Of a stretch of 64,000 nt of DNA, positions 33,747-37,256 are shown piece by piece; the stretch's first letter is position 1; each line of letters starts with the position of its first letter. The notes beneath the pieces were generated by a model. That model did not search any database, was not told the DNA's origin, and worked only from the letters and a program-made list of their open reading frames with translations. The position numbers and the translations under genes were made by a program. Source of the DNA: a virus; IMG/VR virus record IMGVR_UViG_3300033571_022960, positions 1 through 64,000 of that record; one strand, given 5' to 3'.

Positions 33747-34151
33747 ATGAAATTTGAAGAAATCTTTAACGAAACAGACAATCTTTTTAAGGAAGTATTA
33801 GAAAAAACATCAATACCAAAATTTGTGAAATTTAAGGTTGTTGGATGTCAAGAACAAAAAGAAATTTATAAATTATCAAAAACAAATCCTTTAGTACACT
33901 ATATTACTGGAATTGATATTTTAATTACTTTAAATGAGGATATTTTTTCACAACTTAATGATTTGCAACAAAAGGTTGTATTACAAGAATGTCTTGCACA
34001 AGTATATTATGATATGGATAACGATAAATTAAAATTATTAAAACCTGATGTTAGTACTTTTTCTAGAATATTGGAACAATATGGTGTTAAAGAATACATG
34101 GAATTAAAAGAAGTTATTTCTGCTATTCAGAATCAGAAGGAGGAAAAATAG
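33747..34151 (+). CDS. hypothetical protein, 134 aa (degenerate zincin-like fold possible)
   Basis: 'KFVKFKVVG' start of fold, 'DILITLNEDIFSQL', a helix 'QQKVVLQECLAQVYYDMDNDKLKLLKPDVSTF' (condensed) and a C-terminal helix. The layout recalls phage metallopeptidase-like proteins in which the helix carries HExxH. Here it reads QECLAQ, so no catalytic site is present, and the match is tentative. It immediately precedes the attC-like array. Confidence 0.5.
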   Translation: MKFEEIFNETDNLFKEVLEKTSIPKFVKFKVVGCQEQKEIYKLSKTNPLVHYITGIDILITLNEDIFSQLNDLQQKVVLQECLAQVYYDMDNDKLKLLKPDVSTFSRILEQYGVKEYMELKEVISAIQNQKEEK

Positions 34152-34189: not shown

Positions 34190-34212
34190 CTGATACACCT
34201 TGTTAGGTGCAG
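34190..34212 (+). other. attC-like 3' half site (L'-R')
   Basis: ATACACCTTGTTAGGTGCAG: an L'-like ATACACC, then TT, then an R' box GTTAGGT (34202-34208) that fits the GTTRRRY consensus. The left part ATACACCTTGTTA is identical to the 3' half of the full site at 34612-34712. No matching 5' half lies upstream, so it is the left boundary of the array. Confidence 0.6.
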
Positions 34213-34235
34213 TAAATTTTTAAAAGAAAAACAAA

Positions 34236-34361
34236 ATGGGCAGAAAATTAACAAGTTATAATGGTGAAGATTGTATCTATACACCAAGAGAAATGGCAAA
34301 GGCTATTGTAGAAAAGTTAAATCCACAAGGAATTATATTAGAACCTTTTAATCGGAATTAA
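34236..34361 (+). pseudogene. truncated N6-adenine DNA methyltransferase fragment
   Basis: 41 residues: 'YTPREMAKAIVEKLNPQG' and 'ILEPF', the start of type I or phage-type adenine methyltransferases that would continue with the AdoMet-binding motif I (EPF-x-G-x-G). Here it breaks off as EPFNRN and a stop. Its position at the start of cassette 1, before a second ORF, suggests a deletion joined a methyltransferase cassette to another one. It cannot be active. Confidence 0.6.
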
Positions 34362-34372
34362 AATTTAATAAA

Positions 34373-34609
34373 ATGAGAAAATACAGAATTAGAGAAGAAA
34401 AGTTTGAAGATGGTAGAAGTGAATTTATACCTCAATTTGAAGAAGATGGTCAATTTCATGATTTCTTTTATTTATCAGGATTAAATAAAGATAGACCACC
34501 AATGATTTCAAGACGTTTTAAAACTTTTGAGGGTGCGAAGAGTGAAATTGACAACGATAAGTTAAAATCAATGAAACCAATTGAGGTAAAAATTCACGAT
34601 GTAGATTAA
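34373..34609 (+). CDS. cassette 1 ORF, hypothetical protein 78 aa
   Basis: Starts MRKYRIREEKFEDGRSEFIPQF, with 'SRRFKTFEGAKSEID' and a C-terminal 'KPIEVKIHDVD'. The pattern 'Y-R-I-x-x-E-x-F-x-D-G-x-S-x-F-x-P-Q' is familiar from small hypothetical proteins in bacteria, including mobile-gene settings, but no function is known to me. It ends 2 nt before the attC-like site, the usual tight packing of a gene cassette. Base composition looks less AT-rich than the phage genes around it. Confidence 0.6.
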   Translation: MRKYRIREEKFEDGRSEFIPQFEEDGQFHDFFYLSGLNKDRPPMISRRFKTFEGAKSEIDNDKLKSMKPIEVKIHDVD

Positions 34610-34611
34610 AT

Positions 34612-34712
34612 TGTGTATAACGGATGGGTGTATGAGAAGGTTTGCTTAGATGAACTTTCAAATTAACTACAACTGATGATAGCAAACTTTCTTATACACC
34701 TTGTTATACACA
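34612..34712 (+). other. attC-like site 1 (full)
   Basis: Outer arms TGTGTATAAC (34612-34621) and GTTATACACA (34703-34712) are perfect inverted repeats. Inner arms at 34627-34646 and 34681-34700 pair at 18 of 20 positions. The left spacer is 5 nt (GGATG) and the right one 2 nt (TT), the asymmetric layout of R''-L''/L'-R' in attC sites. The central loop is about 34 nt, within the size range of known attC sites. Confidence 0.7.
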
Positions 34713-34771
34713 GTACGGTTTATTAAGGTAGAATGTTGATACGAAGAAAGAATAAAACTTTTTAAAAATGT

Positions 34772-34781
34772 GAATATTTAT
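34772..34781 (+). promoter_or_regulatory. late-type motif inside cassette 2
   Basis: GAATATTTAT about 23 nt before the ATG at 34805. The same core precedes phage late operons, so this cassette carries a phage-type promoter motif. Confidence 0.4.
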
Positions 34782-34804
34782 ATATAAAATAAAAACATAA
34801 AACT

Positions 34805-35143
34805 ATGAGTACAGAAATAAGACAAATGATTGATAAGGTTAAAAATTTTAAACAATTTCTTAATGAACAACGTGATGTTTCATTAAGAAATGATATATGT
34901 AAAATAATTGATGAATTTACAAATAAATATGGTAAAACATTAGCGGCACATTCTCATATTAAACGTGTTGAAAATGATGCGTTAGGAATACTTGCTGAAA
35001 AAATAGATAATTTTTTGAATTACGGTGATTATAGAAAAATATGGTCAATCTTAAATGATTTCACAAAAAATGATGCACTATTTGATGATAATAATATGGG
35101 ATTAAGTGAAACTATATTAGATAAATTAAACTTGGGTAGATAA
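34805..35143 (+). CDS. cassette 2 ORF, phage-like hypothetical protein 112 aa
   Basis: Helical protein starting MSTEIRQMIDKVKNFKQFLNEQ. The first 20 residues look like a T4 internal-protein leader: amphipathic helix ending F-L-N-E, a possible (L/I)-x-E cleavage site. Unlike the other cassettes it has a late-type motif upstream, so it looks like a phage gene lying within the cassette array. Its stop is 54 nt before the R'' box of the next site. Function unknown. Confidence 0.6.
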   Translation: MSTEIRQMIDKVKNFKQFLNEQRDVSLRNDICKIIDEFTNKYGKTLAAHSHIKRVENDALGILAEKIDNFLNYGDYRKIWSILNDFTKNDALFDDNNMGLSETILDKLNLGR

Positions 35144-35194
35144 TTTTTAAAAAGTTTTTATCACAAATGTTAAATCGAAGTACTTTGGTAGCAT

Positions 35195-35254
35195 TGTGTA
35201 TAACGGCTGCAAATAAAACATCGTTTTAATGTGTTTTATTTGTTGTTATAAGTT
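35195..35254 (+). other. attC-like site 2 (full, short)
   Basis: R'' box GTATAAC (35198-35204), spacer GGCTGC, arm AAATAAAACA (35211-35220), short loop, arm TGTTTTATTT (35232-35241; perfect 10 bp), spacer GTT, R' box GTTATAA (35245-35251). Total near 60 nt, as in the shortest integron attC sites. Its R'' (TTGTGTATAAC) is complementary at 10 of 11 positions to the R' start of the same cassette (GTTATACACAG at 34703). Confidence 0.7.
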
Positions 35255-35290
35255 GTATTATTTTTGTTTTACCTTATAAAAAATTAAATT

Positions 35291-35566
35291 ATGGAAAAAA
35301 TTGTAGAAAAAAAGAAATTATCTTGGAATATTGAACGTACAGAGCTTCAAGGATTCAATTGTAAATACAATTATAAATTTTCAACACCACAATGGTTAGA
35401 AAGTGTTGATAATCCAGAGTATTTTGGGATTTCACACAATGATATGAAAGAAAAAGTTATTGAAAATTTAGTTAGTGAATTTAGAATAGCGTTAAACAAT
35501 GTTATATTTGGAGACCCTGCTGGTAGAGAATATGTGGAACATTTAGAAAATTCAAAACAAAAATAA
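35291..35566 (+). CDS. cassette 3 ORF, hypothetical protein 91 aa
   Basis: Starts MEKIVEKKKLSWNIERTELQG; central 'NYKFSTPQWLESVDNPEYFG' and a C-terminal amphipathic helix 'VIENLVSEFRIALNNVIFGD'. No family recognised. It ends 5 nt before the R'' box of the next site. No late-type motif upstream; like cassette 1 it looks foreign to the phage late programme. Confidence 0.55.
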   Translation: MEKIVEKKKLSWNIERTELQGFNCKYNYKFSTPQWLESVDNPEYFGISHNDMKEKVIENLVSEFRIALNNVIFGDPAGREYVEHLENSKQK

Positions 35567-35567
35567 T

Positions 35568-35668
35568 ATTACTTATAACGCTTGGCAATATATGTAGTTG
35601 CCTTGTAGGAATTTAAAAATTAGTATAAACCTTAATAGGCAATTACATATATTGCTTGTTAGCAAACG
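35568..35668 (+). other. attC-like site 3 (full)
   Basis: R'' region CTTATAAC (35572-35579), spacer, inner arm 35585-35602 pairing with 35638-35655 at 17 of 18 positions, spacer TT, R' box GTTAGCA (35658-35664). The left spacer is again longer than the right. R'' (ACTTATAAC) is complementary to the R' start of its own cassette (GTTATAAGT at 35245). Confidence 0.7.
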
Positions 35669-35675
35669 TTCCTTT

Positions 35676-35963
35676 ATGAGTGAGATTATTAAAAAGTTAG
35701 AAGAAAATCAGTTTCAAACTGTTAAAAAATCAAATGTAAAATGTCCAATATGTGATGGTGATTTATACACTGTTGATAATTGGATGATGGTAGTTATGGA
35801 TGGTAATACTGTTTATCATTGTGAAAATGTTGAAGAACATAAATTTTGGAATCATCCGTTTGAAGATAATAACATTTTACATTTGAATAAAAATGCAAGT
35901 GAAACTGATTGGACAACAGAGCAAGATTATAAGTTGGTAGATGGTTCTTGGAATGTTTGCTAA
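35676..35963 (+). CDS. cassette 4 ORF, zinc-ribbon-type hypothetical protein 95 aa
   Basis: From the ATG at 35676 (MSEIIKKLEENQFQ); an in-frame earlier start at 35598 would lie inside the attC-like site and is rejected. 'VKCPICDGDLYTVDNW' gives one CxxC knuckle; 'YHCENVEEHKFWNH' may supply further Cys and His ligands, so a small zinc-binding fold is plausible. Function unknown. The stop codon lies inside the R'' box of the terminal half site, typical of tight cassette packing. Confidence 0.6.
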   Translation: MSEIIKKLEENQFQTVKKSNVKCPICDGDLYTVDNWMMVVMDGNTVYHCENVEEHKFWNHPFEDNNILHLNKNASETDWTTEQDYKLVDGSWNVC

Positions 35964-35985
35964 CTATTGTATATATCTAACTACC
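35954..35985 (+). other. attC-like 5' half site (R''-L'')
   Basis: TGTTTGCTAAC (35954-35964) is complementary at 10 of 11 positions to the R' start of the same cassette (GTTAGCAAACG at 35658). A 5-nt spacer and a TATATAT arm follow, but no 3' half is found downstream. It marks the right end of the array. Confidence 0.55.
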
Positions 35986-36082
35986 CATAACTAATTGATT
36001 TTCAATATGAAAGAAACTAACTATTACGAAATTTGATTTTCTAAGGAATTATTCTTATATTTAAATATCTTACTTATTATTG

Positions 36083-36644: not shown

Positions 36645-37256
36645 ATGTTATCAAACGGTAAAAAAGTTTTATTAAAAATGGTTCAAGATAAGAATCTGTT
36701 AGAACAAAATTCTCAATATACAGATGAAGAAATAATGAATCTAAAATCAATATATTCTTTAGATAAAGATTTTTGCATATCAATTTTTAAAGAACTTTTT
36801 AATAATGAAACTGATAAAGAATCAATTAAACGTTTTCTTATAATTGATTTTGAAGAATCACTTAAAAATTTTATAAGTAAATTAAATAATCCTGGATATG
36901 AGGAAATATTTTTTATTTATTTGGAAGATAAAATAATTGGTTATTGCTCATTTTTTCCTTATAGATTCTCAAAAGATTGGAAATGGTCAAATGACCTTGA
37001 AATGGGTATTTTTATTAAAAATGAATATAGAGGTCAAGGAATTGGAGAAAGTGTCTTAAAACACCTTGAAAATGATTATATTAACCCTTTTTATTCTGAT
37101 TTAAATAAAAATATTAGAAGTGGGAAGAAATTAATTCTTGCACCAACATTCGATAATCCTTCGATTAAACTTTATGAACGTCTTGGATTTAAAAAAGTTG
37201 ATGATAAACAATATAATAATGATGGGTTATTTAGAATGGAAAAAATATTGGATTAA
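36645..37256 (+). CDS. GNAT family N-acetyltransferase
   Basis: 203 residues. The acetyl-CoA pyrophosphate-binding segment 'IKNEYRGQGIGESVLKHLE' (R-x-x-G-x-G) and the terminal 'NPSIKLYERLGFKKV' are diagnostic. The N-terminal ~75 residues are helical and outside the core fold. Substrate unknown; phage GNATs may modify host proteins, tRNA or phage DNA. It is co-transcribed with 36111 behind a late-type motif and overlaps the convergent gene by 4 nt. Confidence 0.8.
   Translation: MLSNGKKVLLKMVQDKNLLEQNSQYTDEEIMNLKSIYSLDKDFCISIFKELFNNETDKESIKRFLIIDFEESLKNFISKLNNPGYEEIFFIYLEDKIIGYCSFFPYRFSKDWKWSNDLEMGIFIKNEYRGQGIGESVLKHLENDYINPFYSDLNKNIRSGKKLILAPTFDNPSIKLYERLGFKKVDDKQYNNDGLFRMEKILD

Follow-up and report, generated by a model that had tools for sequence, protein, structure and literature searches.

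Integrons are usually regarded as bacterial platforms defined by the integrase IntI, and complementarity between the R'' box of a site and the R' box of the previous site is a classical signature of their gene cassettes. Xer proteins resolve chromosome dimers at dif, and are not known to occur beside cassette arrays; mobile stem-loop cassettes (PeSLs) have been reported from T4-type phages. The I2 helix is held to have made hairpin attC recombination possible, and a (partly) viral origin of integrons has been mentioned as a speculation (PMC7790495). Qi et al. 2023 (PMC9892861) described virulent phages with clusters of attC, Polaribacter phage P12002L among them, and assayed attC with IntI1; they also reported canonical components of integrons in four temperate phages. 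Other flavobacterial phages with related sites have been published on account of a temperate integrase, Bartlau et al. (PMC8776804) having taken the integrases of Freya, Leef and Ingeline as evidence of temperate potential; a text search of that paper found neither 'integron' nor 'cassette'. The literature searched contained no report of a phage recombinase, an attI, reversed polarity or isolate-level cassette turnover.

The window, the whole stretch of 64,000 nucleotides that was analysed, corresponds to positions 1-64000 of an IMG/VR virus record that is 133,435 bp long (G000). Its 34.2-36.0 kb region contains four small ORFs with three hairpin sites between them, which a preliminary description had read as an integron-type array in a T4-like phage. 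This reading is strongly supported by hairpin covariation, by the match between R'' and the previous R', and by cassette-sized mosaicism that breaks at the sites. We put at roughly 85% the probability that the array belongs to a phage-encoded, integron-like cassette system of Bacteroidota phages and is one of at least three arrays of its phage. Sequence comparison shows the sites, their covariation, the box complementarity, the invariant layout of array, attI and integrase, and the gain and loss of units at YYYAAC in phage Freya.

The window array and its phage

The record derives from a T4-like phage, with matches to portal, tail sheath, UvsX, DNA polymerase, gp46-like protein and DnaB helicase, and it encodes a gp21-type prohead protease (PF03420). 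A second record (G048) has 6,904 bp in common with it at one end, with a single mismatch, and an exact 43 bp at the other ends (both records: loci L310-L318), and the two joined give a circular-mapping sequence of about 299,945 bp. Their core genes are complementary, with sheath and gp21 protease found only in G000 and TerL only in G048. The sequences indicate that the records are probably halves of one ~300 kb phage genome; recombining relatives are a possible other explanation of the overlap. G048 holds an intact cassette-integrase gene (L288) and, because of the overlap and the complementary core genes, the window's phage probably has an intact cassette integrase. CALINs are set apart by the absence of an integrase from the element's genome: none is present in G000, and an intact one lies on G048, its probable other half. 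The preliminary description had found no integrase in the window, and profile searches (PF00589 and TIGR02249) of the 133 kb record likewise gave no match, but a nine-codon 5' fragment of such a gene is present (Table 1).

Table 1. Features of the array and its flanks in the window (CM, covariance model)
Feature	Position	Strand	Evidence and remarks
PhageMetallopep (PF18894) gene, flanking the array	33747-34151		
Decayed attC right half (L'-TT-R', GATACACC-TT-GTTAGGTGCAG)	34190..34212	+	sequence; left end of the array
41-aa ORF remnant MGRKLTSYNGEDCIYTPREMAKAIVEKLNPQGIILEPFNRN	34236..34361	+	sequence
Cassette ORF 1, 78 aa	34373..34609	+	no Pfam or PHROG match
attC-like site 1, 88-nt class	34612..34712	+	CM R1 E=7.9e-15; core 34618-34706; inner arm 20 positions, arm score 17
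Cassette ORF 2, 112 aa	34805..35143	+	N-terminus MSTEIRQMIDKVKNFKQFLNE↓Q, T4 capsid-targeting-like
attC-like site 2, 48-nt class, ATCGTTTTAATGT loop	35195..35254	+	CM R2 E=2.4e-17, R1 E=2.1e-5; core 35201-35248; inner arm 11 positions, arm score 11
Cassette ORF 3, 91 aa	35291..35566	+	no function assigned from Pfam and PHROG searches
attC-like site 3, 88-nt class	35570..35667	+	CM R1 E=4.1e-14; core 35576-35661; inner arm 19 positions, arm score 17.5
Cassette ORF 4, 95 aa	35676..35963	+	weak PHROG matches (best E=0.002); no Pfam family above cut-off
attI-like element (R box TTTGCTAAC + TATTGTATATATC..., end GAAATTTG)	35953..36035	+	common to the second array and the G048 integrase locus
Cassette-integrase gene 5' fragment, MKETNYYEI then TGA	36007..36036	+	start same as the intact L288/G048 recombinase, MKETNYYEICVQKLK...
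GNAT acetyltransferase gene, further on from the array	36645-37256		

Site 1 consists of R'' GTGTATAAC, a spacer of 5, the arm, a spacer of 2 and R' GTTATACAC, and the unequal spacers described earlier were confirmed, being 5/2 in all three full sites. The R'' of site 2 is complementary to the R' of site 1, and that of site 3 to the R' of site 2. At the left end, the half site seen previously is a lone right half (L'-R') whose left half is gone, and it is below the size for the scanner or the models. Its R' (GTTAGGTGCA) and the next R'', that of site 1 (TGTGTATAAC), are not complementary; cassette 1 has therefore probably arisen by fusion or deletion, and its sequence looks like a fusion with the remnant ORF. 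Judged by eye, this remnant may be the truncated N-terminus of a DNA methyltransferase.

A second array was located by the scanner at 131,924-133,435 of the record, on the minus strand (L004). It carries a copy of site 1 (133112-133015, minus, 97/98 identical) between other ORFs, and ends with the same attI and integrase start as the window array. One of its cassette ORFs (MEEEQKLNEPPKLDIFGVIHS...) begins within the attC loop and reads through R'. An Rfam search of the window gave no match and a tRNA search found none; a nucleotide search of the array region against named phages and a search of IMG/VR for relatives of cassette 4 were likewise negative.

Hairpin sites and the cassette unit

A scanner for the pattern YAAC, spacer, arm, loop, arm, spacer, GTTR returned exactly the three reported sites at 34.2-36.0 kb, at the coordinates first given for them; no site with 5/2 spacers and an arm score of at least 10 arose in 20 Markov (dinucleotide-model) sequences generated for the entire 133,435 bp record. 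Covariance models R1 and R2, made from 33 and 18 sites of other phages only, with the window's phage left out, recovered sites 1, 3 and 2 at E = 8e-15, 4e-14 and 2e-17. Lengths of scanner sites group near 48, 88 and ~125 nt. Pattern scans found the short class in at least 120 viral stretches and the 88-nt class in 86, and the site families are present in well over 100 IMG/VR stretches. The earlier impression that few or no such arrays exist in phages of this type has to be revised, attC clusters in virulent phages having been published in 2023 (PMC9892861).

Across 33 diverse sites of the 88-nt class, none of them from G000, 95.8% of paired cells were standard pairs (69.5% when shuffled) and both sides had changed in 185 cells (54 when shuffled); the short class showed compensatory change at 13 of 19 pairs. 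As in integrons, these are attC-type hairpins with R and L boxes in which structure is kept over sequence. The arms of the phage sites contain no conserved bulges or extrahelical bases in the two alignments (A3 and A4) and instead carry an invariant G.T wobble, present in 33/33 sites of the 88-nt class (A4 columns 30/81). On the opposite strand this pair is a C.A mismatch, a possible strand mark in place of extrahelical bases.

The box complementarity of the window is general. Among 411 neighbouring pairs of sites in viral contigs, the first three outside bases of R'' were the reverse complement of those of the previous site's R' in 76%, compared with 9% against the site's own R' and 8% against shuffled partners. 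Just this match is left behind when a circular cassette is opened at G↓TT. Within the window, sites 2 and 3 and the right end show it, and cassette 1 does not. Cutting at G↓TT and an R'' complementary to the core at the cassette's other end are as in integrons; with reference to the strand of the ORF, the cut falls at the R'' side.

The polarity of the unit is not that of integrons, in which the ORF precedes its attC and is read away from the integrase. In the phage arrays attC lies 5' of its ORF and the ORFs read toward the integrase; the units of ORF followed by attC that were initially described have to be redrawn, each attC belonging to the downstream ORF. Among 38 pairs of homologous ORFs, the upstream site was kept at ≥0.8 identity in 14 and the downstream site in 5, an excess partly due to sites overlapping the beginning of the ORF; of 120 long sites, 61 contain the start of the longest downstream ORF. 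Blocks common to different phages break at sites, oftener at R'' than at R'. The opposite polarity, with attC after the ORF, was tried first and was dropped on the evidence of block breaks, upstream-site conservation and the Freya junctions. This polarity has exceptions: in other phages, three of the ORF blocks held in common start at R' and not at R'', and would need use of the opposite strand or attC exchange.

Most cassette ORFs are small and without known function; some are methyltransferase-like by eye, and one matches an RNA ligase. A capsid-targeting-like leader, of the form MSKEIRxMIDKVKNFKQFVNE↓Q or xRKFIATTIREYLNE↓Q, was found in 34 of 366 cassette ORFs, including window cassette 2, compared with 7.2 expected by shuffling; a few of the 34 are chance matches. 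The leader family recurs across the cassette ORFs of other phages, and a gp21-type protease is encoded by most records tested. The idea that attC itself supplies the leader was dropped because the leader is not enriched among ORFs starting inside attC (2/109), as opposed to those starting after it (32/257, enriched). In T4, a capsid-targeting sequence sends diverse anti-restriction proteins into the head (PMC3012670), and the leader sequences suggest that some cassettes may encode head-packaged proteins injected with the DNA.

The attI-like element, the recombinase and phage Freya

The right end of the window array (35953-36036), part of which (35954-35985) had been taken for a second half site, is not a broken attC: it consists of a conserved attI-like element and, after it, the initial nine codons of the integrase, MKETNYYEI-stop. 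The element, YTAAC-TA(T/G)-N-TATATA, is found upstream of the recombinase and also in related phages; as in integrons, the attI adjoins the integrase gene. Its R box matches the R' of the last cassette in 14/16 cases (shuffled mean 2), and in the window it is complementary to the R' of site 3 at 6/6 positions. The window block shares 77/78 positions with the second array, and each of the three arrays compared (window, second array and G048) finishes with this block, up to GAAATTTG. Both stub arrays, the second at record position 131,998 (-), stop at the identical integrase-gene base; this common end is perhaps a functional attI boundary or a copied attI.

A recombinase match to the IntI profile (TIGR02249) was obtained in 22 of 50 array-bearing viral records, with 0/50 above the cut-off. 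The protein, a tyrosine recombinase of ~270 aa, is the last gene of the array and on the same strand in all 20 mapped loci, near-identical records included, with no sites beyond it in the stretch examined. At least 12 of the integrase-bearing records match TerL and/or tail sheath. The recombinase combines PF13495 (SAM-like N-domain) and PF00589; its best NCBIfam profile is archaeal XerA (NF040815) and its best PDB sequence match 4a8e. It aligns with Vibrio cholerae IntI4 in two pieces, and the IntI I2 region is deleted in 17/17 aligned phage proteins; no integrase with the I2 helix and a score above the TIGR02249 cut-off, as integrons have, was found. In a tree shown without support values, the phage recombinases group with Bacteroidota and flavophage recombinases and not with IntI. 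An AF2 model had good local confidence (pLDDT 83) and uncertain domain packing (pTM 0.59), and Foldseek was therefore used for fold class only. One further array (L287, G061) is rich in methyltransferase-like ORFs and has a more divergent recombinase, 38% identical to that of L286.

In Bacteroidota genomes with phage-type sites, the closest recombinases are 40-46% identical to the phage proteins. The idea of a bacterial reservoir of cassettes found no support in the ~1.5 kb fetched around Bacteroidota recombinases, which contained no array save two overlapping scanner hits in one locus (L242). The Bacteroidota loci (L239-L248) carry Xer/IntI-like recombinases, several of which lie at the end of a contig, as though next to repeated DNA.

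Cassette turnover can be followed in a cultured relative, Polaribacter phage Freya, which has an integrase 38% identical to the query recombinase. In the region compared, seven published Freya genomes, all from one host, are the same except directly upstream of the integrase, where they differ by whole attC+ORF units; all of the junctions lie at YYYAAC. The series comprises F1 (base), F2 (+842 bp), F5 (+902), F6 (F5 plus a further ~470 bp unit), F8, which is without the 902 bp unit only (a single internal loss of attC+ORF), F9 and F10. In the four F10 segments, the contained R' complements the terminal R'' over nine bases in 3/4 and over six in the fourth. These isolates document how cassettes are gained and lost in nature. 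The scanner also found sites of similar architecture in P12002L and P12002S. Freya, Ingeline, P12002S and P12002L (L291-L294), published as carrying a temperate integrase (PMC8776804) or as CALIN (PMC9892861), have related sites with loops of 200-400 nt, able to hold a whole ORF.

Competing explanations and known systems

In the proposed mechanism, a phage Xer-like tyrosine recombinase of ~270 aa without I2 would recombine attC hairpins, presumably as folded single strands, with each other and with the attI upstream of its own gene. The mobile unit would be attC with its downstream ORF, as far as the next YYYAA↓C, which reads G↓TTRRR on the reverse strand, with chemistry and register the same as in attI; new cassettes would consequently enter beside the integrase and all ORFs would read toward it. 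The window array would be served in trans by the integrase of G048, the presumed other half of the genome. Several points count against this explanation: the integrase in G000 is a nine-codon stub and supply rests on joining two metagenomic contigs; the I2 helix, to which hairpin attC recombination is currently tied (PMC7790495), is missing from this recombinase; and Freya has an integrase only 38% identical to the query and is not T4-like.

The preliminary description had named a host-encoded IntI as the likely agent, which would make the array a CALIN of canonical bacterial cassettes captured by the phage. The sites do resemble attC, phage attC including one of P12002L recombine with IntI1 (PMC9892861), and the 133 kb record has no integrase profile match. 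The invariable phage recombinase at the array end, however, with its co-varying attI and without I2, speaks against a host agent, as do the lack of an extrahelical bulge and the reversed ORF orientation. A search of ~85,000 genomes turned up the short-site pattern in only 35 stretches, many of which are short MAG contigs, against at least 120 in viral contigs, and among 21 genomes with short-type sites only one had a match above the IntI cut-off. In 300 Flavobacteriaceae genomes, R2 matches mostly scored 39-57 bits, usually one or two per genome, with >65 bits in two genomes, and are probably for the most part chance hairpins. Mobilisation by a host IntI is given little credence.

An ordinary lysogeny integrase with attP beside its gene, the hairpins being unrelated terminators or PeSL-like promoter/stem-loop cassettes that promote homologous recombination, would fit the temperate potential read from Freya, Leef and Ingeline and the stem-loop cassettes of T4-type phages. 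We regard it as highly improbable: complementarity of R'' with the previous R' and co-variation of the attI R box are unexpected of terminators, the Freya junctions have only the box bases around YYYAAC in common, and T4-like or very large phages account for many of the array-bearing records. It is unlikely that the window array is a decaying relic on which no recombinase is active, although the integrase is cut off after nine codons, the left half site is degraded and the R boxes of cassette 1 are mismatched; complementary boxes are retained at sites 2, 3 and attI, site 1 is nearly identical in the second array, and an intact integrase lies on G048.

Beyond the phage-encoded cassette system itself, the sequences would allow a bolder reading, to which we give slightly less than even odds: a separate integron class native to Bacteroidota phages, in which an I2-less Xer-like recombinase acts on folded attC hairpins with the invariant C.A/G.T as strand mark, either convergent or a surviving pre-IntI stage, and which reshuffles host-takeover proteins, some of them head-packaged and injected. 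Judging by the sequences, these phages seem to possess their own machinery for shuffling genes. Such a system with an I2-less recombinase makes the idea of a viral origin directly testable and would explain the continued exchange of small accessory genes by large phages; Freya, whose isolates already differ by whole cassettes, is a ready culture model.

With the T4 internal proteins the system shares leaders ending (F/Y)(L/V)NE↓Q on some cassette ORFs and a gp21-type protease in most tested records; it differs in that the leader-bearing genes sit in recombinase-defined cassettes. Archaeal XerA and other Xer proteins have the same minimal domain layout without I2. The phage CALINs (PMC9892861) are likewise attC clusters in virulent phages, and the P12002L sites have the same arm pattern. 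Bacterial integrons have in common with the phage arrays the head-to-tail cassettes, R''-L''-L'-R' hairpins with unequal spacers, the G↓TTRRR core, the R''/R' match within a cassette, a simple attI beside the integrase gene and a PF13495 + PF00589 tyrosine recombinase. In contrast, the phage recombinase is phage-encoded, lacks I2 and falls below the IntI cut-off, the phage sites have the invariant G.T (C.A on the other strand) instead of an extrahelical base, and attC lies 5' of ORFs that read toward the integrase. By the features compared in these sequences, the phage system works like an integron but lies outside the IntI-defined family.
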